From assembly GCA_030442035.1 (NCBI GenBank), contig JAUJEA010000013.1, positions 124,001 through 188,000 of the forward strand: 64,000 bases of DNA, written 5' to 3'. Shown here piece after piece: positions 12,836 to 64,000 of the stretch. The translations under genes were made by a program, and so were the position numbers. Source of the DNA: Splendidivirga corallicola (GTDB taxonomy: Bacteria; Bacteroidota; Bacteroidia; Cytophagales; Cyclobacteriaceae). How positions within the stretch are numbered: the stretch's first letter is position 1; each line of letters starts with the position of its first letter. A model generated the notes under the pieces. That model saw only the letters and a program-made list of their open reading frames with translations. It made no database searches and was not told the origin of the DNA.

Positions 12836-14407
12836 TTATTTAACAACGGATGTAGCATCTTCATGCTGCACTATCGGTAAAATTACCTTAAACTCTGTAA
12901 AAATATTCTCCTTTGTGGTAAATGAAATTACTCCGTTTAAAGCTTTTGCTGCTTTTTGTGCTATATATAGTCCCAGCCCGTTTCCTCTGGAATTTTCGTT
13001 TCCAACAAAGAACATTTCCCAGATCTTGTGTTGCACGTTTGACTTAATTCCGACACCATTGTCCCGTATGCTCATGGCTATATGGGAATTTTCCCTCCTG
13101 ATCTTAACACCAACCTCAGGTTGGATTCCATCTTCCAACGAACAGTAGAAAAGAGCATTTTCAACCAGATTCTTTAGAATTATTTCTACCAATGTCGGAA
13201 TTGAATCAATGCTGCTTTCCTTGGAAACCTTGAAATTGAAAGAGATTTTGTGTTTCTCAATAAAATCATGGAAGTGCTGCTTTACCTTTTGTATTTGTGT
13301 ATTGAAATCCACATTTGAATAATCAGATGGATGATTTATTTGACTAACCATCATGAGCTTTTGAAGCATTCTGTCCATATCAATAGCTGTTTGTGAGGTC
13401 TTTTCAAACAGCTCCCAGGATTTATTATCCAAAGTGAGCTTAGCTATATTAGATAGTCCGATGATGGACGTTAGCGGGCGTTTGAGATCATGTGAGGATT
13501 TGTAAAGGAAAGTGTCCAGTTCTTCATTGGTGGCTCTTAGTGATTCAGTTTTCTGTGCAACCAAATCTTCCAGATGTTCATTTATACTCCTGATCTCCTC
13601 ATTGGCTTTAGCTAAGGCTATTTGTTGTTTTCTGAACTTTCTTGCCAGGAATATGGAAAACAATGTAAGTAATCCAAGTCCGGTTACAATGAGAAGTACA
13701 GCTAATATTTTCATCTGAAAAGCCTTTTGGTCCTTTAATCTTTGGCGCTCGCTGTAAGTAAGTTGGTCTTCCAATACATCAATGTCGTGTAGCTCTTTCT
13801 TCAATGAATCAAGCGTGATTTTATAGCCGGCCTGATTTTGAAGAAATTTCTTCTCGTTTAGTATCAATGCTTTTTCCAATGTCTCCAAGTCGGTCAATAT
13901 CTTCGTTTTTTCTTGAGCCGTAAGATCACCTGCTTCCTGAGAGAATTTCTTATTCATTATTTCTAATTTCTTCTCAAACTCCAGGATTAGCATGACCAAA
14001 TCCTTTTCCTCTTTCAAAGCCCGATCTATTAACAAGATGATATCACTTTTGACAGAAGACGAATCTCTTATCCTTCCGTTCAATACTTCGGGAACTTGTT
14101 TAGTCAGTGAATCCTCCGTTTCATTTACCAGTTGATAAAGCTTTAGATCCAATTTTTCTTTAATAGTGTCATGAACCTTTTCCATTTCCAGACTTTTGAT
14201 AAAGGCATAAAACGCTTCTATCGATTTAATCGAATCCAGTGTGTCAAGGTTGGTATTTTCAGGCTTGTGAATATTGTCCTCTGTTGGAATAGTTTTGACT
14301 TGCGCCGGACTTAATATAATGTGCTTTGCTATGGATTGATGCGATAATTCTAACAATAACAAAAAAATAACAATCCATTTGATTGTTGCAATGTTCCCAA
14401 ATTTCAT
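12836..14407 (-). CDS. Membrane sensor histidine kinase
   Basis: A 523-residue kinase: N-terminal signal/anchor (about 8-27), a largely helical extracytoplasmic domain (about 40-225), one TM segment (about 231-253), a coiled coil, a HisKA dimerisation domain with the H box SSHDLKRPLTSIIG, and a HATPase domain with N box (KNLVENALFYC), G1 (IRDNGVGI) and G2 (GNGLGLYIA). All catalytic boxes look intact. No response regulator gene is adjacent, so it is an orphan kinase here. It is the last of three minus-strand genes (LysM protein, dodecin, kinase) but 410 bp separates it from dodecin, so it probably has its own promoter. Confidence 0.9.
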   Translation of the reverse strand: MKFGNIATIKWIVIFLLLLELSHQSIAKHIILSPAQVKTIPTEDNIHKPENTNLDTLDSIKSIEAFYAFIKSLEMEKVHDTIKEKLDLKLYQLVNETEDSLTKQVPEVLNGRIRDSSSVKSDIILLIDRALKEEKDLVMLILEFEKKLEIMNKKFSQEAGDLTAQEKTKILTDLETLEKALILNEKKFLQNQAGYKITLDSLKKELHDIDVLEDQLTYSERQRLKDQKAFQMKILAVLLIVTGLGLLTLFSIFLARKFRKQQIALAKANEEIRSINEHLEDLVAQKTESLRATNEELDTFLYKSSHDLKRPLTSIIGLSNIAKLTLDNKSWELFEKTSQTAIDMDRMLQKLMMVSQINHPSDYSNVDFNTQIQKVKQHFHDFIEKHKISFNFKVSKESSIDSIPTLVEIILKNLVENALFYCSLEDGIQPEVGVKIRRENSHIAMSIRDNGVGIKSNVQHKIWEMFFVGNENSRGNGLGLYIAQKAAKALNGVISFTTKENIFTEFKVILPIVQHEDATSVVK

Positions 14408-14441
14408 TTTTTCTTTCCCTTTTAATTTCTATTTGCTGCCC

Positions 14442-14481
14442 GTGTTAACATCACCATAGATAGGGTCTATGGTGATAACAC
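14442..14481. promoter_or_regulatory. Long imperfect hairpin upstream of the histidine kinase
   Basis: ATCACCATAGA (14450-14460) pairs with TCTATGGTGAT (14466-14476) around a 5-nt loop. Outer arms GTGTT and AACAC (14442-14446 and 14477-14481) extend it with a 3-nt bulge. It lies 35 bp upstream of the kinase start codon and is either an operator or a 5' leader structure. Confidence 0.5.
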
Positions 14482-14721
14482 TCCTCACATGACAGATCAA
14501 ACTTATTCTCAGCGATCGCCCTTGGGCGACCCTTTTGCATTTTTGTGTTCTCCGGTATTTTCAGGACCATTGGAACAGGCCTGATATTTTACCAAAAAAT
14601 TTGATTTTGTGTTAATTCATTAAAAAATATTCTGCAAATCTATTAAAAGCATTAACTCAACCAATAAATCTGTATATCAAAGTATTCTGTAATCAGGATA
14701 AAAAATATAATAGGCTGCAAA

Positions 14722-23114: not shown

Positions 23115-24398
23115 TTACTTTAGCACCAATTCTACTTTGGGTGGATTGGCATAGTCATTCCAAGCCTGCTCTGCCCTTTCCTTCGTTATCTCACCATCAT
23201 ATACCAACATGCGGTATTTAAGCACATATTGGTTGCCTGGGTTCAATTTCCAGTTTCTGTCTTGCGTCGGGTTAAAGTTTATGAATACATTTTCTTTTCC
23301 ATTATTGGCACCTACTGGCCAAATTCTTAATGGTTCCGGATAATTGTAGTTTGATGGGTTTGTCATGAACAATATACCGGATGTTCCAAAATCCGAAACT
23401 CCATTGACATTACACCACCTCGCTCTTGTTCCATTTCCATCTGTCTTATTTTTTCCTTCAGAGGTGAGTATAGTAGCTGTCTTGTCGTTCCACTTTTCAG
23501 TTGCCCGGAAACCGAACCCCTGATATCTGTACTTTTGAATGATCAATGGACTTTCGCTATCACAGTTCATTGATGACACAAAATCAACCAGCCAGAACGC
23601 TGAGTTGGGATCAACATTCCAGACCCTTACTTCCCACTCTTCATTTAGTGCCACCTTTGATCCTGTGGGATCCGGTGCGGTGAGGTCGATGTGCTCATGA
23701 ATGGCTTTGAACCTTCCCATGACATCGCTGCTTTCCACCAATGTTACTTTTTTGGTACGTACTGTTCCTTGCCCTTTATTCAAATTCCAAAAATCAATTT
23801 TTCTATTCTCAAACTCAGTATGTGTCCATGGGTTCCAAATGCCTACATGGTGATAGTGATCAGGGGGCTGGACACGTGTGAGCACTTCCCCTTTTGGTGA
23901 CCAAAGCGGGTGTATAAACGCACTTCTCTCATACAATAATGAAGCTCCTTCCGGTGCTGGTAAAGGTGTAATTCTATACCGAAGGATCTTTTTATCGTTG
24001 ATGGTAATGATTAAATCCTCAATATCTTTGTTCACCTGAACAATGGGTTTTCGATGACTCACCTTTGAAGTGTCTTTTTCAGAAAGCATCATTTGAAATG
24101 TTCTCTTGGAGCCTTTTTTTGTGGTACCGGAGAGGACCCACCATAATCGTGGATGATATCCTTGTTCGATATATATGTTTACAGGTATTTTGTTTTTTCC
24201 TTTCACCTCATAGACTTTCAGATCTTTGTTAGTAAGATCCAGATCTAACCCTTCAAGCGATACATTCACAACAGTATTATCTCTTACAAAACTTCCGGCA
24301 TGTACTATTAATTTTCCAAGATCTATCTCCTGCCCAAACAAGTTGGTTGCCATCACACATATAAATGCCAATACTTGAATTTTCTTTTTGCCAATCAT
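23115..24398 (-). CDS. DUF6807/PmoA-family secreted protein
   Basis: A 427-residue exported protein (signal peptide about 1-22, ending NLFGQ). The central and C-terminal part has the DUF6807 (annotated as PmoA) pattern: ...RSAFIHPLWSPKGEVLTRVQPPDHYHHVGIWNPWTHTEFENRKIDFWN, with a His cluster typical of the family, and a late NWKLNPGNQYVLKYRMLVYDGEI segment. The PmoA name does not mean methane oxidation; these proteins cluster with ThuA and Gfo/Idh genes in carbohydrate loci. First gene of the set after the LamG-SARP regulator. Confidence 0.85.
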   Translation of the reverse strand: MIGKKKIQVLAFICVMATNLFGQEIDLGKLIVHAGSFVRDNTVVNVSLEGLDLDLTNKDLKVYEVKGKNKIPVNIYIEQGYHPRLWWVLSGTTKKGSKRTFQMMLSEKDTSKVSHRKPIVQVNKDIEDLIITINDKKILRYRITPLPAPEGASLLYERSAFIHPLWSPKGEVLTRVQPPDHYHHVGIWNPWTHTEFENRKIDFWNLNKGQGTVRTKKVTLVESSDVMGRFKAIHEHIDLTAPDPTGSKVALNEEWEVRVWNVDPNSAFWLVDFVSSMNCDSESPLIIQKYRYQGFGFRATEKWNDKTATILTSEGKNKTDGNGTRARWCNVNGVSDFGTSGILFMTNPSNYNYPEPLRIWPVGANNGKENVFINFNPTQDRNWKLNPGNQYVLKYRMLVYDGEITKERAEQAWNDYANPPKVELVLK

Positions 24399-24725
24399 AT
24401 TAGTGCATTTATCAGTTCGTATTTTCCTTGTGGATGCATGATTTGATCGTAGCGTCAGTCAATTCATGCATTTAACAAATATGGTATTCGATGTCTAAAT
24501 CCGGAGTTAATTAAGACTTAATTTAGAGCTAATAATTCAAAAAATAATCCTTTTAGGAGGTGTTGGTGATATGAACAGAAAATTGTCAACTGAATCTGTA
24601 ACAACGGCGATATTCCTGGGCTTGTTCCTTTCTGAGAAACCTTCATTCAAAGAAACTATGGGAACCGCTAAATATGTCTTTTGAAATGGTAAAAGATACC
24701 CGAAAAATAGAATTTGGATTTGAGA
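24399..24725. other. 327-bp gap between regulator gene and carbohydrate gene set
   Basis: Probably the promoter region of the DUF6807-ThuA-Gfo/Idh set. A 37-codon plus-strand frame with an upstream AGGAGG (24571-24684) lies here but opposes the neighbours and has no recognisable sequence. No strong palindrome was noticed. Confidence 0.5.
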
Positions 24726-27164
24726 TCAAGGGTGAAAATCATTAAATGAAACTACAAACTCTTCCTGGTAAAACTGCCGGTACTGGCCAACAAAATGTTG
24801 ATATACTCTTAAAGCTTGTTGATGTTTTTTCTGATCTCTAAGTGCGGCCACTTTATACCTGATGGCTATTTCATGGACCATATCAAAGGTGAGTATTATG
24901 TCGCAATAGTCTATAAGCAAATCATAATCTTTAGTGCTCCACAACTCCTTGAGCAATGGTGTATAAATATCAATGATTCTATTTGACACATTGAATTTGT
25001 AAGGATCAAGCCATTCCTTTGAAAGATTAGGTAGGAACTCACCTGTCCTCAATATATGGGTTAGCCCGGATAGATTTTTTATATCAAATGGCTCTTTCAC
25101 CAGGTCCAGGAAATCTGCATAATCAGAGTATACGGCATCACTCACTGTAATAAACCAAAACTGATTTTTGTATTTCAGTTCTATCCCATCCAATTTGGAT
25201 AATATATGCCTCAGTTTTGTGGTTGAAACACCTCTGTTATTGATGGCACTTTGCCTTGAAAGATCGTGCCATATGCTCGATGACAAGTCTTCGGAGGAAA
25301 TCCCCTTCTTTGTTTTCAAGGAGGAAATATATAAGAGTATAAACAGTTCCTTCAACCTGGGGGTGATTTCATTTGTGATGTTGATGCCATTTCGGTCAAA
25401 GACTTTAAAGCCACCAAACATCAATATGGCATTTCTGTTTAAGTCAGTTTCTTTTATTTCCGATTCATTTACGCTGTCATCTGTTGTTCTGTTAGATTTT
25501 GCTCTCTTTTTAAATAAGAACACCAGAAACAAGGTAAACGGTATGACCAGGCCTATCCAAAGTAAATTTGAGTAAGAAAGATTGTTTTCTAAATCCAGAC
25601 TTCCTTCATAAACATGTTGGATCTCATTTTCTCCCAGGGCCCTATTCCAGAAAACGATGTCATCAATATAACCGTTAAAAAATGTTTTGCTTCCCGAGGA
25701 TGTTTTTCTATAACCCAAAATTAAATTGCCGGAGCCTCTCAATGGGGGTCTCCCACTGGCCAGTGTGTCTAATTCTCCATTAATAAAAATGGCCTGTTCC
25801 TGTAATTGTTTCCTGTATCGCCAAACAATGTTGTACCATTTGTTCTCTTCGAGATTTGTTTTTCCTGCCAGGTCATTATGAAAAAAAGCAAAGTATGGCT
25901 TCTTATCCCTAATTAAAATGTGCAAGCCTTCCGAGTATTTATTTTCTATGGAAGAAAGAATAATTTGATCTTCATCATCAATACTTATCAATTTTGCCCA
26001 GACAGAGATGGTAAAACTCTCGTTAACCAGCCCCAATGCTTTCAATTCCGTTAATTTCCCAAAATGTTTGCCTCTTAAAGCAGCTACCTTTGATCGATTG
26101 AAATCCTCAGTAAATGTTATACTATCGCTCTTTCCTTTCAGGCTCTTGGAGAACAAATCATCGAGATTGTCATCCAAAGGAAAATACGCCGTAACACCAT
26201 CTGAGATCTTCTTCTTTTTTGATTTAATACTGACCTTTTGATCATCTTCTCCTCCAATGTCAAGTTTTTCAGGATAAAAGGAGAAACCCGGACTTTGAGG
26301 AGCAATAGAGAGATGTTCACCTGCATAAACCGGAAAGCAGAAGCTATTTCCTGTGATAGCCATGAAATCTCCTGTCCAGTTTATTTTATGATGACTGGCA
26401 GTTTCAAAACTAATCGTACCATAACTTTTTTTGGTAGAATTGATAATTTGATTGATTTTTTGACGGAATTCCACACCATCAAGCAAAATAAAATTGGGTA
26501 CCTGTCCCGTTCTTTTCCAGGTATCAATGAAAGCGTCGATGAAACCTGGTGCCAATCGAAAATCTGTTGTCTCTGTTGGCAAATCTACGGTCAGCATTAG
26601 TAATTGACCTGGAGATACTATTTCTTTTGAGTGCAGAAATGATCCGGAGGCGTGATTATATTGACCGCTTGCAATTATCTGAGAGTCGCTTCCATCAATG
26701 AATAGGGACACCAACTGTTTTTGACTATTTGATAGTTCCTTTAGGGACGGCCAAATGTTTGAAGACTGGTGAGTATATTTTTTGTTGTATAAATTTGTTT
26801 GATTGAATATTCTATTGATCCAGACTTCAGAAACCGACTGGAAAAGAATAGTCTTAATTGCGTCCGGATGCTCTTCCAAATACTCATTCAGGTGAGTAAA
26901 TAGTGTCACCAATTCAGTTTCAAATAAATATTCGAGGTTTTGATGATTGGAGAAATCAAAGAAAATGCAGGTGTTGCCCTGATCTAAGAATCTTTGAAAA
27001 ATGATTTTTTTCAACTCTTCATCAGCGTCAAAGCGATACTTCACTACCTCTTGACTTAGATGTTCATAGCTGCCTTGTGAATAAACAGCTAATGACATAA
27101 GGCAAAAAAGGAAGAATAGAATAAATTTTTGATTCCTCACTATTTCGAAGTTAAGTGACCGCAA
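24726..27164 (-). CDS. Membrane one-component regulator: LamG sensor + SARP-type winged helix and BTAD
   Basis: An 812-residue protein. Signal/anchor at about 13-31; an extracytoplasmic N-terminal domain (about 32-300) I cannot name with confidence; a LamG/concanavalin-like domain (about 318-505: AYFPLDDNLDDLFS, ESFTISVWAKL, ENKWYNIVWRY, NGYIDDIVFWNRALGENEIQ); a TM helix (about 527-548); a winged-helix DNA-binding domain (about 575-670: LMFGGFKVFDRNG..ITPRLKELFILL..) and a helical BTAD/TPR-like C-terminus. It places a carbohydrate-type binding domain outside and a DNA-binding domain inside in one chain. Same strand and immediately upstream of the DUF6807-ThuA-Gfo/Idh set, its likely target. 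Confidence 0.85.
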   Translation of the reverse strand: MRSLNFEIVRNQKFILFFLFCLMSLAVYSQGSYEHLSQEVVKYRFDADEELKKIIFQRFLDQGNTCIFFDFSNHQNLEYLFETELVTLFTHLNEYLEEHPDAIKTILFQSVSEVWINRIFNQTNLYNKKYTHQSSNIWPSLKELSNSQKQLVSLFIDGSDSQIIASGQYNHASGSFLHSKEIVSPGQLLMLTVDLPTETTDFRLAPGFIDAFIDTWKRTGQVPNFILLDGVEFRQKINQIINSTKKSYGTISFETASHHKINWTGDFMAITGNSFCFPVYAGEHLSIAPQSPGFSFYPEKLDIGGEDDQKVSIKSKKKKISDGVTAYFPLDDNLDDLFSKSLKGKSDSITFTEDFNRSKVAALRGKHFGKLTELKALGLVNESFTISVWAKLISIDDEDQIILSSIENKYSEGLHILIRDKKPYFAFFHNDLAGKTNLEENKWYNIVWRYRKQLQEQAIFINGELDTLASGRPPLRGSGNLILGYRKTSSGSKTFFNGYIDDIVFWNRALGENEIQHVYEGSLDLENNLSYSNLLWIGLVIPFTLFLVFLFKKRAKSNRTTDDSVNESEIKETDLNRNAILMFGGFKVFDRNGINITNEITPRLKELFILLYISSLKTKKGISSEDLSSSIWHDLSRQSAINNRGVSTTKLRHILSKLDGIELKYKNQFWFITVSDAVYSDYADFLDLVKEPFDIKNLSGLTHILRTGEFLPNLSKEWLDPYKFNVSNRIIDIYTPLLKELWSTKDYDLLIDYCDIILTFDMVHEIAIRYKVAALRDQKKHQQALRVYQHFVGQYRQFYQEEFVVSFNDFHP

Positions 27165-38606: not shown

Positions 38607-41600
38607 TCAAGAACTCCTTTCCTTTGATAACAATTGATATACACATGGTATTACAACCAGGTTTAAGAGCGTCGCGGATAACAAGCCTCCCAGAATGACT
38701 ACAGCCATTGGGCTCTGAATTTCATTTCCCGGTTCACCTCCTTTTAGAGCCAATGGTATCAAAGCTAGTCCGGTGGTAAATGCAGTCATCAATATAGGAT
38801 TTAATCTGTCTAAGGCCCCGGTGAGAATTAGATCCAAGCCCTTTAATTTTTCCCTCCGTAGATCTTCATAACGAGATACCAGTAAGATCCCATTGCGTGT
38901 AGCAATACCGAATAAGCTGATAAACCCAATCGTTGCTGCGATACTAATAATACCGGAAGTAAAGTATACAATCAAAATACCTCCAATCAATGACAAGGGC
39001 AAGTTAACCAATACCACAGAGGCCAGTTTTACGGATTTAAATTCAAAGTATAACAGTAAAAAGATCACCAGGATAGCTAATACGGCTGTGATCAACAATA
39101 ACTGTGAGGCTTTCTCCTCACTTTCAAACTGACCTCCGTATTCCACTCTATAGCCTTCAGGCATCCTGATGTCATTCTCAATTATTTCTTGAATTTCGTT
39201 CACAGCACTTCTCAGATCACGTCCCTGTACGTTAGCTGCCACTACGATTTTACGTTGCACATCTTCACGGCTGATGGTATTCGGACTGCTTACTGAAGCT
39301 ATAGCAGCCAATTGGTTCAAGTTGGTTTGACCTCCATTTGGTAAACTAATGAGGGCTGTTTTAATATTCTCAATTTTGTTCCTTGATTCTTTTCTGAATC
39401 GCACCACCAGATCAAAATATTCCTGCCCTTCGTAAATTTCTCCTGCCTTTTCTCCTGCAAAAGCAATATCCACTTGTTCTAACAAATCGTTTACTGTCAT
39501 TCCATAGGCTGCCAGCATCTGACGTTTAGGAGTGATCCTGAGCTGTGGTACTTCAATTTGTTGGTCTACTGCTACATCCGCCAATCCCTGCACCGATTGA
39601 ATCCTCTGTTCAATGCTTTTGCCGATATCAAATAGTTGTTGCAAATCTGATCCAAAAATCTTTATAGCTATATTAGCCCGGGTACCTGATAGCATATGGT
39701 CAATGCGATGGGCAATTGGTTGCCCAAGTGTGATATTTACACCGGGAACAACACTTAACTTGGTTCTTACTTCTTCGAAAAAAGCTTCTTTGCTTTTATC
39801 CGTCAGTGCAAACGGAACATCAATTTCAGCAGCGTTTACACCTTGGGCATGCTCATCTAACTCTGCCCTTCCTGTTCTTCTTGTCACAACCTGTACCTCG
39901 GGCATTTCAAGTAAAAGCTTTTCAACCAGATTTCCTGTCTTATTACTTTCCTCGAGCGACATACCCGGTGGCCCTACCACGCTAATCACTAGAGATCCTT
40001 CATTAAATTCGGGCAAAAAGCTCCTGCCTAGTTGTGTTGAAAGTACAAGACTGACCAAAAAAACTGCAATGGTCAAACCCACGACCGTTTTAGGAATTCC
40101 TAATGCCTTGGTTAAAACCTTGGAATATTGCTTCTGAAGCCATCGTTCGGCTTTTGTTCCTTCAGCTTGTTTACCCAACAATTTTTTACTCTTTAACAGA
40201 TAGGAGCACAGCACAGGGGTTAAAGTAACGGCAACCACCAGGGAAGTGAGTATGGATGTGATAAAGGCAATACCCAAAGGTTGGAGTAAACGACCTTCCA
40301 TTCCTCCCAGAAAAAACAATGGTATAAATGATACTATAATGATTAATGTGGCAATTATAATGGAGCTTCTTATTTCGATAGATGCATGTTGGACTACTTT
40401 TAATACAGGCAATTGCTCATTTTTTGGCTTTCGAATATTTTCTCGCAATCGCTTAAATACATTTTCTACATCAATGATCGCATCGTCCACCAAGGCACCA
40501 ATGGCAATAGCCATTCCACCCAGACTCATCGTATTGATGGTATAACCCAATAATTTCAATACAATGATTGACACCAACAGTGAAATGGGAATGGCCAAAA
40601 GTGAGATCAGAGTAGTTCTCCAGTTCATCAGGAAAATGAACAAAACAATCATCACAAAAAATGCCCCCTCCATCAGGGTTTGATTCAGGTTGTTGATCGA
40701 CGCCTCAATAAAGTTTGATTGTCTGAATATGTGTGATTTTATTTCCAGGCCTTTTGGTAATGTATTCTTTAAATCCTCTATCGCAGCATCCAGCTTTTCC
40801 GTTAATTCAAGTGTATTAATACCAGGCTGCTTGGAGATGGTTAAAATGATGGAAGGAGAAGCATTCAGCGAACCATCACCAATTTTATCTGCTGGTCCAA
40901 TCTGTACGGTTGCTACATCCTTTATCTTGATGGTTTGTCCATTAACTTGCTTTAGAACTGCTTCTTCAAGATGTTCAACAGAATAAGCCCTGCCACTACC
41001 TTTAATGATATATTGATTTCCATGTTGATTGAAGAATCCTCCGGGAGCACTGACATTGGCTTCCTGCACTTTTTCCAATAGATCGCGAAGCCCAACCTGA
41101 TAGTATTTCAATTTTTCAGGATGAGCAAAGACCTGATATTGCTTGTAATCACCGCCAATAACAATCACATTGGCAATGCCACCAATAGCTTTGATCCTTG
41201 GCCTGATAGTCCAGTCAGATAAAGTCCTTAATTCCATTAATGACAAACTATCGGATGTGACACCCAATAACATAATTTCACCCATGATCGAAGAGATAGG
41301 TGCCATAGTGGGTGTACCAACACCCGTTGGTAAATTTTCACGTACCATAGGGATACGCTCACTTACAATTTGCCTTGCTTTATATATATCGGTTCCCCAT
41401 TCAAACTCCACCCAAACAATGGATATTCCAGCTGCTGATGAGGAACGTATCCTTCGAACATTCGGTGACCCATTCATCGCAGTTTCCAACTGATAGGTCA
41501 CCAACTTTTCTACTTCCTCTGACTCCATCCCATGAGCCTCAGTCAAAATTGTCACTGTTGGGGCAGTCAAATCAGGAAAGACATCTACGTTCATCGTCCT

Positions 41601-57951: not shown

Positions 57952-58084
57952 TTAATGTCATTAACTTAAGCCTTATCGAACAGAAGACGTCATTCCTGCG
58001 TAAGCAGGAATCTCATTTTTAGAAGTTTATGCCTGATTGAGATCCCTTATCAAGTAAGGAATGACGCTTAAGTTAATGGCATTG
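57952..58084. mobile_element. 133-bp MITE with terminal inverted repeats and 9-bp target duplication
   Basis: Terminal repeats AATGTCATTAACTTAAGC (57954-57971) and GCTTAAGTTAATGGCATT (58066-58083) match at 17 of 18 positions. The exact 9-mer GCAACAAAC flanks the element at 57943-57951 and 58085-58093. Inside, ATTCCTGC-GTAA-GCAGGAAT (57992-58011) forms a hairpin. Removing the element and one 9-mer joins the flanks into a continuous open frame leading toward the recombinase. No transposase is encoded, so it needs one in trans. Confidence 0.82.
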
Positions 58085-58779
58085 GCAACAAACCATTAAA
58101 TCGACCCATAGAGCCAGAGAAGCAGGTGAAAATAAGCGATTTTAAAAAAAAGAGTCGTGGATAAGGATTGCAGAGTCTGTCCCAAAGAGTATATTCAAAA
58201 ACTAGAATTGAGAAAATACAGCTTGAATACAGCCAAAATTTACATTAGTTTTTTTGAAGCATTTATAAATTATTTTAAAATGATCTATTGGAGATCAATG
58301 AAACACAAATGTATACTCAGTTTAATATATTCAGCAGGATTGCGAAGAGGTGCATTGATTAACCTGAAATTAAAAGATATTGATAGTAAGCGCATGTTGA
58401 CTCGTGTGGAAGATGCTAAAGGAGGGAAAGATAGATATACCTTGTTGGGTCAAAATGTATTGAAAGATTTAAGAAAATACTATCAATTATTTAAACCTGT
58501 GAATTACTTATTTAAAGGTGAAAAGGGAGGGAAATACGGTGGTTCAAGTATCATAAACATTATCAAAAGAGCCTCTTTAAAGCTAATATCAGGAAAAATA
58601 TGAAAGCGCATACATTGAGACATTCATTTGCTGCTTACCTATTGGAAGATGGTGTAAACTTGCGGCACATTCAAACACTTCCAGGTCACAGCTCGGGCAA
58701 AACAACAGAAATTTATACCCACGTGGTAAGTACATTTATGAATTTTTTTAAAAAATCCTTTAGATTAGAAATTTCATAA
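58085..58779 (+). pseudogene. Decayed tyrosine recombinase gene
   Basis: Parts: NRPIEPEKQVKISDFKKK (58094-58150), VCPKEYIQKLELRKYSLNTAKIYISFFEAFINYF (core-binding start), then KHKCILSLIYSAGLRRGALINLKLKDID (catalytic Arg) and KGGKDRYTLL (Lys), then [15 protein letters not shown] (HxxR), PGHSS and EIYTHV (Tyr). Defects: A8 run at 58144-58151 shifts frame by +1; about 95 residues are missing between INYF and the Arg motif; a 1-bp loss near 58580 puts the HxxR/Tyr part in another frame (58600-58779); a MITE sits in its 5' part. Catalytic residues survive in pieces, so decay is recent. Confidence 0.85.
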
Positions 58780-58861: not shown

Positions 58862-60004
58862 ATGAAACGAATTTTATACTTACTACTATTATCAATGGTC
58901 TTTAATAGTGTTTCCAACGCACAAGAAAAGTTTGAGTTGAACGGATATGTAAAAGGCTATGAAGGAAAATTTCAGTTAATTCTAAACTTTATTAAACCAA
59001 ACCACGACGCGGATATAGAAAATGAGCAGGTTTTGGAAATGGTTGATGGTCGATTTAAACTTGAAGGCCAACTAGAGGAACCTTTACTTTTATCAATCAG
59101 AATAAAACCAAAAATAATTAAAGATCATGATAAATTTGAGATCGCATTTATTTGGATAGACAATAAAAAAATGACATTGATTGGTGAAAGGGGAAATTTT
59201 GAATACTGCGACGTAACCGGATATCAAAGACAGGATGAAAATGAAAAAAGCAGAATTTATGTAAGGGACATGCTTAACAGTTATAACGCCAGGATTGATT
59301 CACTATCTGAAATTCAATCTATAGAAGCACTTAATGAGGCGAAGCAATTGAAATCGGTTTCAAAATTTTATTTGAAAAATAAATATTTGTTAGATTTTAG
59401 CTACAAAAATCCTGACTCTTTTATTTCGGTATACCATTACTCATGGTTTGTAAAATGGCTACCGGAAATGGTTCCAAAATCACAAGCAATAGCGTTTTAC
59501 CAGTCATTGAAAGAGGACTTAAAGGGAAATATACATGGAATGCAAATCAAGCATTATATTGATAATGTGGCAGTAAATAGAAAGCTAAAGGTTGGAGACC
59601 GCCCTTACGATTTTAGCTTAAAAAATTCAATGGGAAATACAATAGCCCTGAATGACTTCAAAGGGAATGTGGTATTACTTGATTTTTGGGCATCAGGTTG
59701 TGGCCCTTGTAGGAAAGAGCATAAAAATTATGAACAACTTTATAGTGAATTTCACAAAAAAGGATTTGAGATATTTTCCGTAAGTCAGGATAGAAACAAA
59801 GAACGTTGGCAAAAAGCGATGATAAAAGACAATATGACCTGGCACTCTGTTTGGGATGAGAAAAAGGATATATCCACTTATACCTATTTAGTGTCAGCAA
59901 TACCACAAAATTATTTGATTGATAGAAATGGTATTATAATAGGTGAAAACCTTAAAGGAGTAGATTTAAGAAATGCTTTGATGAAAATTTTTAATAACAA
60001 TTAA
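58862..60004 (+). CDS. TlpA-like thioredoxin-fold protein with DUF4369-type N-terminus
   Basis: A 380-residue exported protein (signal ending VSNAQE). N-terminal beta-rich domain (about 22-110, FELNGYVKGYEGKFQLILNF) like DUF4369, a helical middle, then a thioredoxin domain from about 245 with VVLLDFWASGCGPCRKEHKNY (CGPC redox motif). Usual role: periplasmic disulfide reduction or haem/thiol maturation. First gene of a run of single-gene units separated by attC-like palindromes. Confidence 0.9.
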   Translation: MKRILYLLLLSMVFNSVSNAQEKFELNGYVKGYEGKFQLILNFIKPNHDADIENEQVLEMVDGRFKLEGQLEEPLLLSIRIKPKIIKDHDKFEIAFIWIDNKKMTLIGERGNFEYCDVTGYQRQDENEKSRIYVRDMLNSYNARIDSLSEIQSIEALNEAKQLKSVSKFYLKNKYLLDFSYKNPDSFISVYHYSWFVKWLPEMVPKSQAIAFYQSLKEDLKGNIHGMQIKHYIDNVAVNRKLKVGDRPYDFSLKNSMGNTIALNDFKGNVVLLDFWASGCGPCRKEHKNYEQLYSEFHKKGFEIFSVSQDRNKERWQKAMIKDNMTWHSVWDEKKDISTYTYLVSAIPQNYLIDRNGIIIGENLKGVDLRNALMKIFNNN

Positions 60005-60132
60005 CGCCATATAACAATGCTCATAATTAATAGCGGTTTAAATTGATAAAACGAAATTATAAACATAAAAAAGGTCTGTGCTAAACTGAAAAGTTCCTGA
60101 CTAGAAATCTGCTACTACTGATACACTGAACC

Positions 60133-60142
60133 GTTGGCAATA
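60133..60142 (+). repeat. Cassette-start sequence GTTGGCAATA (attC 1R-like)
   Basis: GTTGGCAATA lies just before the lipoprotein gene at 60149 and is the exact reverse complement of TATTGCCAAC (60637-60646), just after it. In integron cassettes the start (TTRRRY side) and the end (RYYYAA side) are complementary because they come from one attC site split on insertion. Confidence 0.6.
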
Positions 60143-60148
60143 ATATAA

Positions 60149-60622
60149 ATGAACCCGAAAAAACTAATTAATAACCTGAAATTTTTGACATTGCTTATTA
60201 TGTTAATAAGCTATGGTTGTGCTTATGAATCTCAAAGCCGAGAGAAATTGGTATCGTCTTTCGAAGATAATTTTGGATTTAAACCACCTGAATCTGTTGA
60301 AAAAATAAAACTCAAAAATTGGGGAATGTACGACACTCAAGTTCATTGGATGTCATTTACATATGACTCAAAAGTATTTGAGAAAATTATTGACCACGAC
60401 CAACTTTTGGAAATTGCGGAAAGTAATAGTCCTGATTTTAAAAAAATAATTGAGGAATTGGAAAAAGATGTTCACCATCCAAAATGGCTGAATCTACCAA
60501 ATGAAAATGTTGAAAGGATTTATCACAAAAAGGATTTTCTTGATCACACTTTCAGCGAGTATTATCTGTGGACCGACAAAGAAATGGAAATGACATATCT
60601 ATATGTGCATTTCTTTGACTGA
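60149..60622 (+). CDS. Hypothetical lipoprotein, candidate cassette gene
   Basis: A 157-residue lipoprotein (hydrophobic signal ending in ISYGC). The mature part (KLVSSFEDNFGFKPPESVEKIKLKNWGMYDTQVHWMSFTYDSKVFEKIIDH..) reads as a small alpha/beta domain; no named family recognised. It is bracketed by perfect 10-bp inverted repeats, as an integron cassette would be. Confidence 0.7.
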   Translation: MNPKKLINNLKFLTLLIMLISYGCAYESQSREKLVSSFEDNFGFKPPESVEKIKLKNWGMYDTQVHWMSFTYDSKVFEKIIDHDQLLEIAESNSPDFKKIIEELEKDVHHPKWLNLPNENVERIYHKKDFLDHTFSEYYLWTDKEMEMTYLYVHFFD

Positions 60623-60636
60623 ATAATAAAAAGTAC

Positions 60637-60805
60637 TATTGCCAACAAATGCTATGAATGAATGGGTTTTCATCTGTCAGGATATTTTCGCTGGGAATTG
60701 GAAAGTCCGCCACAATTAATAAATTTGGAGAAAGGCGTGGCTATGTGCGAGAGGAATGGTTTGTACTTTCTAATACCCACTCATCATAGCAGGGCCGTCG
60801 GTATT
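60637..60805. repeat. attC-like imperfect palindrome 1
   Basis: TATTGCCAAC (60637-60646) then TGCTATGAATGAATGGGT (60650-60667) pair with ACCCACTCATCATAGCA (60775-60791) and GTCGGTATT (60797-60805). The inner arms match except for one bulged A and one G-U; the outer arms pair partly (1R reads GTC not GTT). About 169 bp with AAC and GT(C/T) ends, the layout of attC 1L-2L-2R-1R. Confidence 0.6.
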
Positions 60806-60840
60806 TATACACACCTAAAATAAAATTAACGAATATCAAA

Positions 60841-61527
60841 TTGAACCCAACTAGACAAACCGGACAGATAAAGCCTCTAAATGCCTTAATCGATCTCACA
60901 ATATTCTTATCAGTTATGTTCCTCATCAGAGAAATCCGAATCGATAGTCTCGGTTTTTGGGGATACTCACTATTTAAATCATTCACCACAATGGGGGTGG
61001 CAACCTTATTACTTTATTACAGAAAGCAATCGTGGAAAGATTTGGGTTTAACTAAACCGGACAATTATTTGAAATCCCTTGGAGTTGCAGTCATTGTCCT
61101 TGTAGGAACGGTAATTTCAATAATGATTTTTGAAATATTCTTGCGTGATCTACTTTTTACTAACACAGAATCAGTTTCAGGAACTGAAAGATTCAGCGAA
61201 CTAAAGGGGAATATACCGTATTTCTTCTCAATAATCTTTTTTGTCTGGATAGAATCTTTTCTAGAAGAACTCCAGGACCGGGGATTTTCCCTAAACCGGT
61301 TTGATTCACTGTTTAGTAAAATTCCACTTTCGACAGTTCTTGCAGTACTATCACAAGCAGCAATTTTTGGATTTAGACATTCATACGATTTTTCACCAAG
61401 GTCAATAACCACTGGTTTGGTCGGGCTTGTATTTGGAACCGTTTATGTATTAACAGGTAGGAATCTCTGGCCATTAATTATTGCTCACATCATTTTGAAT
61501 ACCATGTCAATGATCGATCGATTATAG
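60841..61527 (+). CDS. CPBP-family intramembrane metalloprotease
   Basis: A protein of up to 228 residues with about six TM helices. CPBP/Abi motifs: SFLEELQDRGFSL (EExxxR), IFGFRHSYDF (FxxxH) and IIAHIILNT. Such enzymes process lipid or prenylated substrates or provide phage/bacteriocin immunity. No ATG precedes the TM region in frame; TTG at 60841 is the likely start. It lies between two attC-like palindromes. Confidence 0.85.
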   Translation: MNPTRQTGQIKPLNALIDLTIFLSVMFLIREIRIDSLGFWGYSLFKSFTTMGVATLLLYYRKQSWKDLGLTKPDNYLKSLGVAVIVLVGTVISIMIFEIFLRDLLFTNTESVSGTERFSELKGNIPYFFSIIFFVWIESFLEELQDRGFSLNRFDSLFSKIPLSTVLAVLSQAAIFGFRHSYDFSPRSITTGLVGLVFGTVYVLTGRNLWPLIIAHIILNTMSMIDRL

Positions 61528-61539
61528 TAAAAAACAAAT

Positions 61540-61656
61540 GCTAACAAACACTGAAATGAATTTGCCAACTGAGCTATTTGAAAAGACGTTGCAAACCACA
61601 ATCTTCAGTGTTGATAGCTACTGGGCCGCATACTCATTTTAGTTGGACGTTCTGAG
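61540..61656. repeat. attC-like imperfect palindrome 2
   Basis: GCTAACAAACACTGAA (61540-61555) pairs with TTCAGTGTTGATAGC (61604-61618), about 14 pairs with bulges. Downstream GTTGGAC (61642-61648, exact GTTRRRY) and GTTCTGAG (61649-61656) precede the next gene; GGACGTTCTGAGCAAT matches the sequence before the 62345 gene (GGACGTTGTGAGCAAT) at all but one base. Confidence 0.6.
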
Positions 61657-61693
61657 CAATCACCGCAAACTGAAAACCGAACACTTTACAGGA

Positions 61694-62101
61694 ATGAACA
61701 GACTTGACAGATGGATAAACTTGGCTCCGGCACTTATTGCCAGCTTAATTGATATAACAGTAACCATCGTACATCAACCAAAAGAGTATTGGGAAGGAAA
61801 CCTTGATAAGGCCAATGAAGGAAACCCAATTGGTGCGATTTTTATGGCTAACCATGTTTCAGGATTATTTCTAATATCAGGAATCGAAATAATTCTAATA
61901 ATGTTTCTAGGCTATTATTTACCCAATAGAATATCAAAGTATCTTTTACTGTTCGTCTTAATTGCCCACTCTTGTGCTACAACTACTTGGATTGCCGGAA
62001 GATACGGTTTTTGGTCTATTATGGCTTTAGCGTTATTTAATACTTTGACGTACTTAATCGCGAATGACATCATAAATAAAAGAACAAAGACAAACTCATA
62101 A
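61694..62101 (+). CDS. Small four-TM membrane protein, candidate cassette gene
   Basis: A 135-residue protein (ATG at 61694; a TTG at 61643 is less likely) with about four TM helices (for example LAPALIASLIDITVTIV, HVSGLFLISGIEIILIMFLGYYL). I do not recognise a family. Start boundary GTTCTGAG and end boundary CTCATAAC are complementary at 7 of 8 positions, as in a cassette. The end repeat overlaps its stop codon. Confidence 0.75.
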   Translation: MNRLDRWINLAPALIASLIDITVTIVHQPKEYWEGNLDKANEGNPIGAIFMANHVSGLFLISGIEIILIMFLGYYLPNRISKYLLLFVLIAHSCATTTWIAGRYGFWSIMALALFNTLTYLIANDIINKRTKTNS

Positions 62102-62327
62102 CAAACTGTATGAAGGCATATGCTTAAGTGCTTTCTATAGTCTGCATCTCGATTCGCCCGTTTCGTTGGCCGCCGAGAGAGCTTGTGTTACTCGATGATT
62201 TCGGTTCGCGGGAGTTTTGATTTATGATGCGTGCCGTTACTTGAAACTTTGGAAGCACCGGCTGATTTCACTATTTTACAGGCATTCACCAAGTGTGAGC
62301 ACACGCCTTATACATGGACGTTGTGAG
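62095..62327. repeat. attC-like imperfect palindrome 3 (clearest)
   Basis: CTCATAAC (62095-62102) pairs at all 8 positions (one G-U) with GTTGTGAG (62320-62327). Inside, TGTATGAAGGC (62107-62117) pairs with GCCTTATACA (62305-62314) leaving one extrahelical G. Outer stem, unpaired spacers (AAAC / TGGAC) and an inner stem with an extrahelical base are the structural hallmarks of integron attC sites. At 233 bp it is longer than most described sites. Confidence 0.65.
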
Positions 62328-62344
62328 CAATTGAAAGGAACTCA

Positions 62345-63496
62345 ATGAAAAAACTAATATACATTATTTGGATAGTTGGATTTGAAAACACCCTTTTTGC
62401 CCAAGAAACCGGAACTTTCATTGATAAAAGAGATGGATTGGAATATGAATGGGTCAAAATTGGACAACAAATCTGGATGGCTGAAAATTTAAATTTCAAA
62501 ACAGAGAAAGGTAGTTGGGTTAACAAAGAACCTGTCGAATATTTGCCCGACGAGTTTGCTATAGCTAGAAAAAACCAAGGAATAGCACTTGTTTATGGTC
62601 GACTTTATGATTGGAAGACTGCAAATGAAGTATGTCCAAAAGGGTGGCATTTACCGAGTGATAAAGAATGGATGTACCTTGAGAGATATTTAGGAATGAA
62701 TCAAGATGAGTCGGATAAAATTGGATATCGAGGAACTTATGAAGGTGAAATGTTAAAATCAAACAATGAATGGGTGGGTCAAATTTTCGTAGAAAAAGAG
62801 GTAATACAAGGAATAGATTTCTTTAACTTTTCAGCACTTCCAGGAGGTGCCCGTCTAAGAATGCTTGGTTCAACAATGGTTGTTCCTGGTATGGAAGGCT
62901 ATTTTTGGACTTCAACAAATTACAATAATAAAGCATGGTTTCGAAAATTGCATTATAACGAAAGTAAAATTGGTCGCGATTTAACAACTAAAAAAAGTGG
63001 ATTTTGTGTCCGTTGTGTTAAAAACTCCACCAAGAGTGACTCCCAGAATGAATTCGTTATTGAACCCAATAGTTGGATTAAGTTAAAAGAACAGAATAGG
63101 AAGAATTCTATCAATAAATTAAAAAAGTATAAAATAGGAGTTACAGATAAGGCTCAATTTGTTTCTGATGGGTGGAATTTCCATGATTCTCGGATGGGCA
63201 ATATTGGGATAATTAACATGAAAAAAACGCCTCAAAGATCAGAATATGTATTAGGAATTTGTGAACCATACAATCCATCTAAGGCTCAAGAAGTCTATAA
63301 TGCTATTCCTGAGGGTATGATAGAGACTGTGGATAATGCCATTATCGATAATGGAATGGAATTAAAAGTGAGCATACAAGAAAAACAAACAAATCTTGAG
63401 CTTACTCAAACGATGGCAAATAGAGAAGATAAAATAAATTATATAGCAAATTTAGTGTTTGAGAATAACATATTGGTATCCTTCAAACTTCATTAG
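62345..63496 (+). CDS. FISUMP-domain exported protein
   Basis: A 383-residue protein with a signal peptide (ending LFAQ) and a FISUMP (Fibrobacter succinogenes major paralogous) domain at about 25-213: WVKIGQQIWMAENLNF, YGRLYDWKTANEVCPKGWHLPSDKEWMYLERYLG, LPGGARLRM, YFWTSTNYNNKAWFRKL and SGFCVRCVKN. The last 165 residues are not recognised. Preceded by GTTGTGAGCA and followed by TGCTCACAA, an inverted pair typical of a cassette. Confidence 0.88.
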   Translation: MKKLIYIIWIVGFENTLFAQETGTFIDKRDGLEYEWVKIGQQIWMAENLNFKTEKGSWVNKEPVEYLPDEFAIARKNQGIALVYGRLYDWKTANEVCPKGWHLPSDKEWMYLERYLGMNQDESDKIGYRGTYEGEMLKSNNEWVGQIFVEKEVIQGIDFFNFSALPGGARLRMLGSTMVVPGMEGYFWTSTNYNNKAWFRKLHYNESKIGRDLTTKKSGFCVRCVKNSTKSDSQNEFVIEPNSWIKLKEQNRKNSINKLKKYKIGVTDKAQFVSDGWNFHDSRMGNIGIINMKKTPQRSEYVLGICEPYNPSKAQEVYNAIPEGMIETVDNAIIDNGMELKVSIQEKQTNLELTQTMANREDKINYIANLVFENNILVSFKLH

Positions 63497-63825
63497 CCAA
63501 GACTTATTTTGGATTATTCCTATTATATTTCTCTGGTCAATGATTAATTGAAAGTTTATCAGAAAAATAACTGCTCACAATAACTAAGCATTCGTGTGGC
63601 CGATAGGCCGAACATGAAAGCTGTGTTGACAAATCCGGAGTTTCTATGGGGAATGCGCTAAGGGAGCTGGTGGTGAATCAGACTATTCAATGAAGCTGTT
63701 GAAACCTATATTGGTCGATGTAGCGCGCCCATGATTTTTTGATCGATGAATATCATTGGAAAGTTCGATTTTTTTGTGGTTTAGATCAGCATTAGGACGC
63801 ACCTCTTCCAATACGTCGAAAGTCG
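63497..63825. other. Non-coding stretch at the end of the cassette-like region
   Basis: 329 bp without a recognisable gene, holding the last cassette-end-like repeat and, presumably, the 3' boundary of the transposase-like gene that follows on the minus strand. Confidence 0.4.
63572..63616. repeat. Cassette-end-like sequence and hairpin after the FISUMP gene
   Basis: TGCTCACAA (63572-63580) is the exact complement of TTGTGAGCA before the gene (62321-62329) and is followed by TAAC. Next is a small hairpin (GGCC-GATA-GGCC within 63590-63616). The matching right arm of an attC-like site was not found. Confidence 0.5.
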
Positions 63826-64000
63826 TTATTTAGAAATCTTTGTTTTTAGTAATGATCTCCATTGGGTTGGCGGTCCGCGTTCGTCAAATACCGATATAGT
63901 AACCAATGCTCCTGTTTTACAGCAAGGACAGATGCGATGAGCTTCTTTCTTCTCAATACCCGGCAATACCAATGCTCCAAGCTGCTCATCGATAATGAGT
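63826..64000 (-). CDS. Transposase-like protein, C-terminal 57 residues (cut by window edge)
   Basis: The minus-strand frame open from the right edge ends with a TAA at 63826-63828. The tail has a zinc-knuckle-like CPCC motif: HRICPCCKTGALVTISVFDERGPPTQW, resembling the C-terminal end of IS91-type (Y2, rolling-circle) transposases of Bacteroidota. Only a tail is visible, so the IS family is tentative. It would put a mobile element directly beside the cassette-like array. Confidence 0.45.
   Translation of the reverse strand, partial: LIIDEQLGALVLPGIEKKEAHRICPCCKTGALVTISVFDERGPPTQWRSLLKTKISK

Follow-up and report, generated by a model that had tools for sequence, protein, structure and literature searches.

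Integron surveys and definitions require the integrase, IntI, to carry an additional domain (PMC2426708, PMC9668308). According to the extract of Smyshlyaev et al. used here, this insertion is not conserved in some integron-like recombinases, yet integrons need it to function (PMC8138268). In the classical system, it is the first extrahelical base that directs strand choice (PMC2727003). The survey made with IntegronFinder 2.0 selects on IntI and on classical attC models, and among Bacteroidetes proper it gives one complete integron (Salinibacter) beyond the earlier integrase-only cases (PMC9024848). Here we analyse a stretch of 64,000 nucleotides (the window) of Splendidivirga corallicola, a member of the class Bacteroidia (assembly GCA_030442035.1, contig JAUJEA010000013.1, positions 124,001 to 188,000 of the forward strand), which lies on contig 5 of a 7.77-Mb genome. 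Its last 6 kb carry a row of genes separated by palindromic spacers. With a probability of about 0.88, we read this region as the relic of an integron-type cassette array run by REC, a tyrosine recombinase that is sister to IntI yet distinct from it.

From 58.1 kb on, five genes lie on one strand, encoding a thioredoxin-like protein, a lipoprotein, a CPBP protease, a small membrane protein, and a FISUMP-domain protein. The sites between them (S0 to S4, Table 1) have AAC at their start and GTT at their end. The decisive support for a putative array comes from these spacers as they occur in other genomes and from a covariance model built from other genomes. When we searched 59 relatives with the array region, in a sample of relatives that includes no genome of the same genus, the matches gathered on the spacers and not on the genes. 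Copies of the spacers at 60642-60790, 61543-61651, and 62100-62322 occur with 73-86% identity in over 15 other genera; the homology ends at the AAC and GTT boxes, and the flanking genes differ. Site S1 (L stem score 13.8) has homologues 73-85% identical in many genomes, and S3 has full-site homologues of 73-80% in several, with the similarity again ending at AAC and GTT. For S4 (hairpin z -1.96, stem score 10.4), no homologue was found in other genomes. Homologues of the CPBP gene that are 68% identical occur in two genomes (G034 and G011) outside any cassette context, and thus give no evidence of a shared cassette.

In one complete genome from another family (G045), homologues of spacers S0 to S3 occur together in a single block of about 50 same-strand genes that starts 59 bp past the stop codon of an intact 284-residue tyrosine recombinase, REC. 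Counting cassettes as linked when their start and end boxes agreed at 6 or more of the 7 variable positions and their sites were flanked by hairpins, we found 26 linked cassettes in this genome versus 1 in the reversed-sequence control. One unit of 702 bp is present twice with zero mismatches. The base ahead of the initial TTAGC differs between its copies (g^TTAG in one, c^TTAG in the other), and both end in CG^TT. The edge of the unit thus lies between G and TT, which is the integron crossover point. Cassettes of this block, including those at rc 24331-26350 and 39655-40174, hold many small paired genes that resemble toxin-antitoxin modules (RelE/ParE-like) by their appearance. Such pairs are also known from classical superintegrons.

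Relatives of REC, counted at E≤1e-50, are present in 156 of the 296 sampled genomes of Bacteroidia (53%), including those of Winogradskyella ursingii, Psychroflexus gondwanensis, Arundinibacter roseus, Algibacter onchidii, and Natronoflexus pectinivorans. At 77 REC loci, the link test gave 151 cassette links 3' of the recombinase and 5 on its 5' side. This amounts to 2.10 links per 10 kb downstream versus 0.11 upstream, with 0.18-0.20 in the reversed controls, and shows that the predicted arrays are located on the 3' side of REC. As a positive control, the same test recovered arrays beside true IntI elsewhere in the phylum, usually 5' of intI and divergent from it. Of 144 cassettes, 133 have their longest open reading frame on the same strand as REC (133:11). 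In many loci, the start box of the first cassette lies some 35-150 bp past the REC stop codon, without a defined attI; nor was an attI found in the window. The sequences show that a predicted cassette starts at the TT of G^TT, usually carries one gene in the direction of REC, and closes with an attC-like site of its own. Since its start and its end are mutually complementary, the site is whole only in the circular cassette or once the cassette has inserted beside another.

The REC sites have a recognisable structure of their own. We aligned 36 diverse ones on the bottom strand and obtained a common fold of 23 pairs, 17 of which show compensatory changes, while two are nearly invariant G.T pairs (35/36 and 33/36). 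Read on the top strand, these two become A.C mismatches; there, 199 REC sites contain 423 A.C versus 93 G.T, and position 11 of the cassette arm is A.C in 75% of the cassettes. The bottom strand is the more stable one at 146 of 167 REC sites, by a mean of 2.5 kcal/mol (p 7e-21), whereas the bias is small in IntI sites (28/52, 0.5 kcal/mol, p 0.06). Extra L'' bases number 48 in the 199 REC sites versus 94 in 54 IntI sites. The lack of the IntI insertion in REC and the lack of most extrahelical bases in its sites may be two linked facts. The loops of the sites are not random either (alignment A3): some motifs, of which GAAGCAC...AAACTTTC is an example, are repeated in different genera in spite of differing arms.

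We built a covariance model from REC sites, excluding the window sequence (R1), and a small home-made one from 14 IntI attC sites (R2), which is not the model of IntegronFinder. In six REC loci, part of which had supplied training sites, R1 identified 52 sites, and in nine IntI loci it gave a single weak match. R2 identified none in those six REC loci and 15 in loci with IntI. In the window, the three best R1 matches are S0, S1, and S2, all on the expected single strand; the best R2 match has an E value of 0.3 and lies outside the array, where R2 found nothing. The initial annotation had proposed an integron-like cassette array and a search with attC covariance models: the search fails with the IntI-based model and succeeds with that of the REC class, and the R1 matches, together with spacers conserved from box to box across genera, uphold the array. 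Its suggestion that the recombination system might be a distinct one also gains ground, given a REC clade that heads such arrays and sites that score only with the model of their own class. No Rfam family covers these sites. By all appearances, they are a second kind of attC.

R1 matches are present in 224 of the 296 genomes of the class (76%), i.e., in 148 of the 156 with REC and in 76 of the 140 without (odds ratio 15.6, p 4e-17, from a cross-table compiled by hand from two lists). They are also present in other classes of the phylum; REC was counted within the class only. Further units elsewhere in the host genome, which the initial annotation had thought worth seeking, came to light as R1 sites at C1:1433117-1433258 (L282), C11:95185, C3:275989, and C30:219943. 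A REC-like fragment of 88 residues lies about 0.7 kb from the first of these and is a second relic. Within the phylum, 85 of 297 genomes have true IntI above the curated cut-off; a single one of these belongs to Bacteroidia, and a genome of the host's own family (G024) is one further case. These rare exceptions within the class are at G024:C13:43538-44470 (L043) and G189:C40:3592-4530 (L186); no cassette links were found at L186. In a genome outside the class (G354:C1 1203-1211 kb, L182), an IntI-scoring gene lies within 10 kb of REC-type sites, a possible mixed locus.

The nearest solved relative of REC by sequence is the integron integrase IntI4 (2a3v), whose insertion of about 50 residues REC lacks. 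Positions about 1-181 and 239-315 of TIGR02249 match REC, and the roughly 58 positions missing between them coincide with the insertion of 2a3v. The cut-off of this profile was passed in 1 of 17 genomes, and the additional domain of IntI around patch III is not present in REC. Some REC proteins exceed the cut-off of NCBIfam NF040815 (243 bits versus 220). In the phylogenetic tree, REC (39 rows) falls on one side of a branch (support 90/83), sister to IntI (100/99), and both are apart from XerC/D (100/100). We enlarged this tree with IntI1, the broken recombinase of the window, and a recombinase associated with an IS91-type element: IntI1 groups with IntI, and the broken gene falls inside the array-leading clade of REC (99/99). 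Positions 58295-58582 of this pseudogene are 60% identical over 96 residues to the intact REC of another locus (L072). The initial annotation described an array without integrase; this part has to be withdrawn, as a broken REC lies at its 5' end and on the same strand.

At their N-terminus, most REC proteins have an additional domain of about 75 residues, whose predicted fold has a mean pLDDT of 91.5 and for which there is no Pfam match. The nearest folds retrieved by Foldseek are weak matches, i.e., the XPB damage-recognition domain (5tnu, E 0.066) and the HARP domain of SMARCAL1 (4o66, E 0.28). A profile of the domain compared with the PDB gave SMARCAL1 HARP (4o66) at E 0.0034 as the only match below E 0.4. 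We take a putative role in structure-specific DNA binding as a lead only. A small Zn-ribbon-like gene (116-142 residues, CxxC motifs) lies just upstream of REC and divergent from it in the complete genome described above (G045 rc 14119-14547) and at loci L071, L072, L123, L132, L145, L147, and L149; its product is possibly a functional partner of REC.

In the window itself, the two ends of each unit match: the bases after its start GTT box are complementary to those ahead of its terminal AAC box, as scored over arms of 12 nt (Table 1). All four mismatches of the CPBP unit are transitions, with GTT changed to GTC, and in the FISUMP unit AAC has become AAT. Among random GTT/AAC pairs 300-1500 bp apart in the window, 8 of 9 arm positions match at a frequency of 2.4e-4; two of the units do so. 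The true pairing of starts and ends tops all 24 permutations by 26 to 25, a margin of one that results from two nearly identical start boxes. By the strictest link test, the window has no links, owing to the decay of its boxes. Taken alone, the complementarity of the arms is suggestive. The initial annotation had correctly placed single-gene, same-strand units at 60-63.6 kb, and the complementary ends it gave for the units of genes 60149 (10/10) and 62345 (9/9) fall inside our arms. The unit of gene 61694, for which it gave 7/8, agrees at 7 of 12 positions over our arms, and its tentative inclusion of the thioredoxin-like gene holds for the 3' end of that gene.

Table 1. Features of the array region, in window coordinates.
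Feature	Position	Strand	Evidence and remarks
REC pseudogene (truncated and frameshifted tyrosine recombinase), array 5' end	58157..58740	+	Phage_integrase Pfam matches in both pieces; tree
Thioredoxin-like gene (AhpC-TSA), probable first unit	58862..60004	+	Pfam; site at 3' end; start box not found
Site S0, attC-like, bottom-strand fold	60004..60144	-	AAC 60013-60015, GTT 60133-60135; R1 E 4e-11; homologue in G045 array
Cassette 1, lipoprotein gene 60149-60622 and own site	60134..60797	+	own-end match 11/12
Site S1	60635..60808	-	AAC 60644-60646; R' box decayed to GTC 60797-60799; R1 match 60635-60801, E 0.0075
Cassette 2, CPBP (Rce1-like) membrane protease gene 60841-61527 and own site	60798..61649	+	Pfam; own-end match 8/12
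Site S2	61534..61660	-	AAC 61543-61545, GTT 61649-61651; 9 other loci 74-82%; R1 E 0.05
Cassette 3, small membrane protein gene 61694-62101 and own site	61650..62320	+	own-end match 7/12
Site S3, 223 nt	62091..62331	-	AAC 62100-62102, GTT 62320-62322; homologues in other genomes
Cassette 4, FISUMP-domain gene 62345-63496 and own site	62321..63625	+	Fib_succ_major Pfam; own-end match 10/12
Site S4, short, last recognisable, ahead of IS91-type element	63570..63636	-	R'' decayed ..CACAAT 63570-63581; GTT 63625-63627

Two other elements border the array. An IS91-type transposase and an adjacent tyrosine recombinase come after its last site: at 63826 to 65794, partly beyond the window end (L035), a transposase of 373 residues on the minus strand, assigned to the IS91 type by reading the sequence and not by a family search, overlaps a tyrosine recombinase of 287 residues. 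Just 5' of the recombinase remnant, a palindromic element at 57954-58091 has at least 4 copies 93-96% identical elsewhere in the genome; it resembles a miniature inverted-repeat transposable element (MITE), and has no Rfam family.

The overall anatomy of the region is also that of a classical cluster of attC sites lacking integron-integrases (CALIN), with ordinary attC sites and a true IntI that is elsewhere or lost, and IntI is indeed found in the phylum and in the host's own family (see above). We consider this explanation unlikely, because R2 is blank in the window array and in six REC arrays, yet detects sites in IntI loci, and because the local remnant is REC and not IntI in the tree. Moreover, the best match of the host genome to the IntI model reaches 82.6 bits versus a cut-off of 265, and it is the recombinase beside the IS91-type transposase. 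This recombinase might itself drive the system, being intact and 1 kb away. We rejected it as the partner of the array, and give the idea almost no weight, in view of its very long basal branch, its identity of 36% or less to REC proteins, and the IS91-type transposase that neighbours it on the opposite strand.

The spacers recur as multiple palindromic copies in different genera, which would fit dispersed MITE- or repetitive extragenic palindrome (REP)-like elements lying by chance between unrelated genes, with no cassettes at all. What largely refutes this is that the variable arms pair inside the cassette and not inside a copy of the repeat; in addition, the copies are downstream of REC instead of scattered around it, and the duplicated units comprise a gene and a site with G^TT edges. 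We thus regard it as very improbable. An even plainer account, ordinary neighbours with chance hairpins or terminators between them, draws on the unremarkable folding of single spacers in the window (z -2 to +0.6) and on two of four arm pairs being weak. It is hardly credible in the face of the R1 match of S0, the homology of the spacers across genera, and the recombinase remnant.

Some observations do count against a REC-run array. Nobody has, as far as we found, reported recombination of these arrays, whose putative activity is read from sequence. The sample has no close relative with the window locus, so that gain or loss of cassettes is not observable there, and the arms of cassette 3 agree poorly. 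No link was found by the link test in 39 of the 77 REC loci (short contigs, decay, or other types of sites), and the 76 genomes with sites and no REC match at E 1e-50 may reflect divergent REC, relics, or another enzyme. Finally, with the long-branched IS91-associated recombinase added, REC is monophyletic in only 41% of the bootstrap trees; because of this branch, a single origin of REC is less certain.

By analogy with integrons, REC would bind the folded bottom strand of its sites, cut at the R' box, and excise or insert cassettes, favouring a site just 3' of its own gene. The choice of strand may rest on the conserved G.T wobbles, which would stabilise the bottom strand only, without the inserted domain or most extrahelical bases, and the HARP-like N-terminal domain may help to grip the folded DNA. 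The window array is frozen, since its REC is a pseudogene and several of its boxes are mutated. We lean, by a small measure, towards a wider picture in which Bacteroidia have their own integron lineage, sister to IntI, that recombines folded single-stranded cassettes with no inserted domain and few extrahelical bases, with strands chosen by wobble pairs and hairpins recognised by the HARP-like domain. If this is true, integrons would be older than the domain by which they are now defined, and far commoner than surveys say. The tests used in surveys give this class almost no integrons, compared with 53% of genomes with the sister recombinase and 76% with its sites. If the arrays are active, environmental and host-associated bacteria contain a large pool of mobile genes that is still unmapped. 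The system also serves as a natural test of how much of the integrase and of attC is really required for recombining folded single-stranded DNA.

The REC system apparently works like an integron but, in the tests made here, lacks features that define the IntI family. As in integrons, a cassette is a gene with its own split recombination site, has a G^TT edge, and can be duplicated in tandem; the sites form an R''-L''...L'-R' hairpin on the bottom strand, and one-way arrays lie beside a tyrosine recombinase. The differences are that REC has no IntI-specific inserted domain and mostly carries a HARP-like N-terminal one, that its arrays are 3' of the recombinase and on the same strand, and that its sites mostly lack extrahelical bases, have conserved A.C (top) or G.T (bottom) pairs, and are not scored by our home-made IntI attC model. 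Standard surveys would miss this family because its integrase is without the part thought to define integrons, and in the open-access PMC literature we came across no paper on Bacteroidota that describes integron arrays whose integrase lacks the domain (the search did not extend to preprints and most subscription papers). The family name of NF040815, 'site-specific tyrosine recombinase/integron integrase' (XerA-like), is generic and silent on arrays or sites.

Among described groups, REC probably belongs in or beside the 'integron-like' subgroup of simple tyrosine recombinases, where members without the insertion were already noted; in the extract used here, no arrays or sites are described for them (PMC8138268). 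Inverted-orientation integron integrases share with REC an unusual orientation relative to the cassettes, but they are IntI proteins, screened for a complete additional domain (PMC8352920). For the window array, the most fitting name is a CALIN-like relic of the REC system: like a CALIN, it has no functional integrase nearby, and what it retains is a pseudogene of the array's own family.

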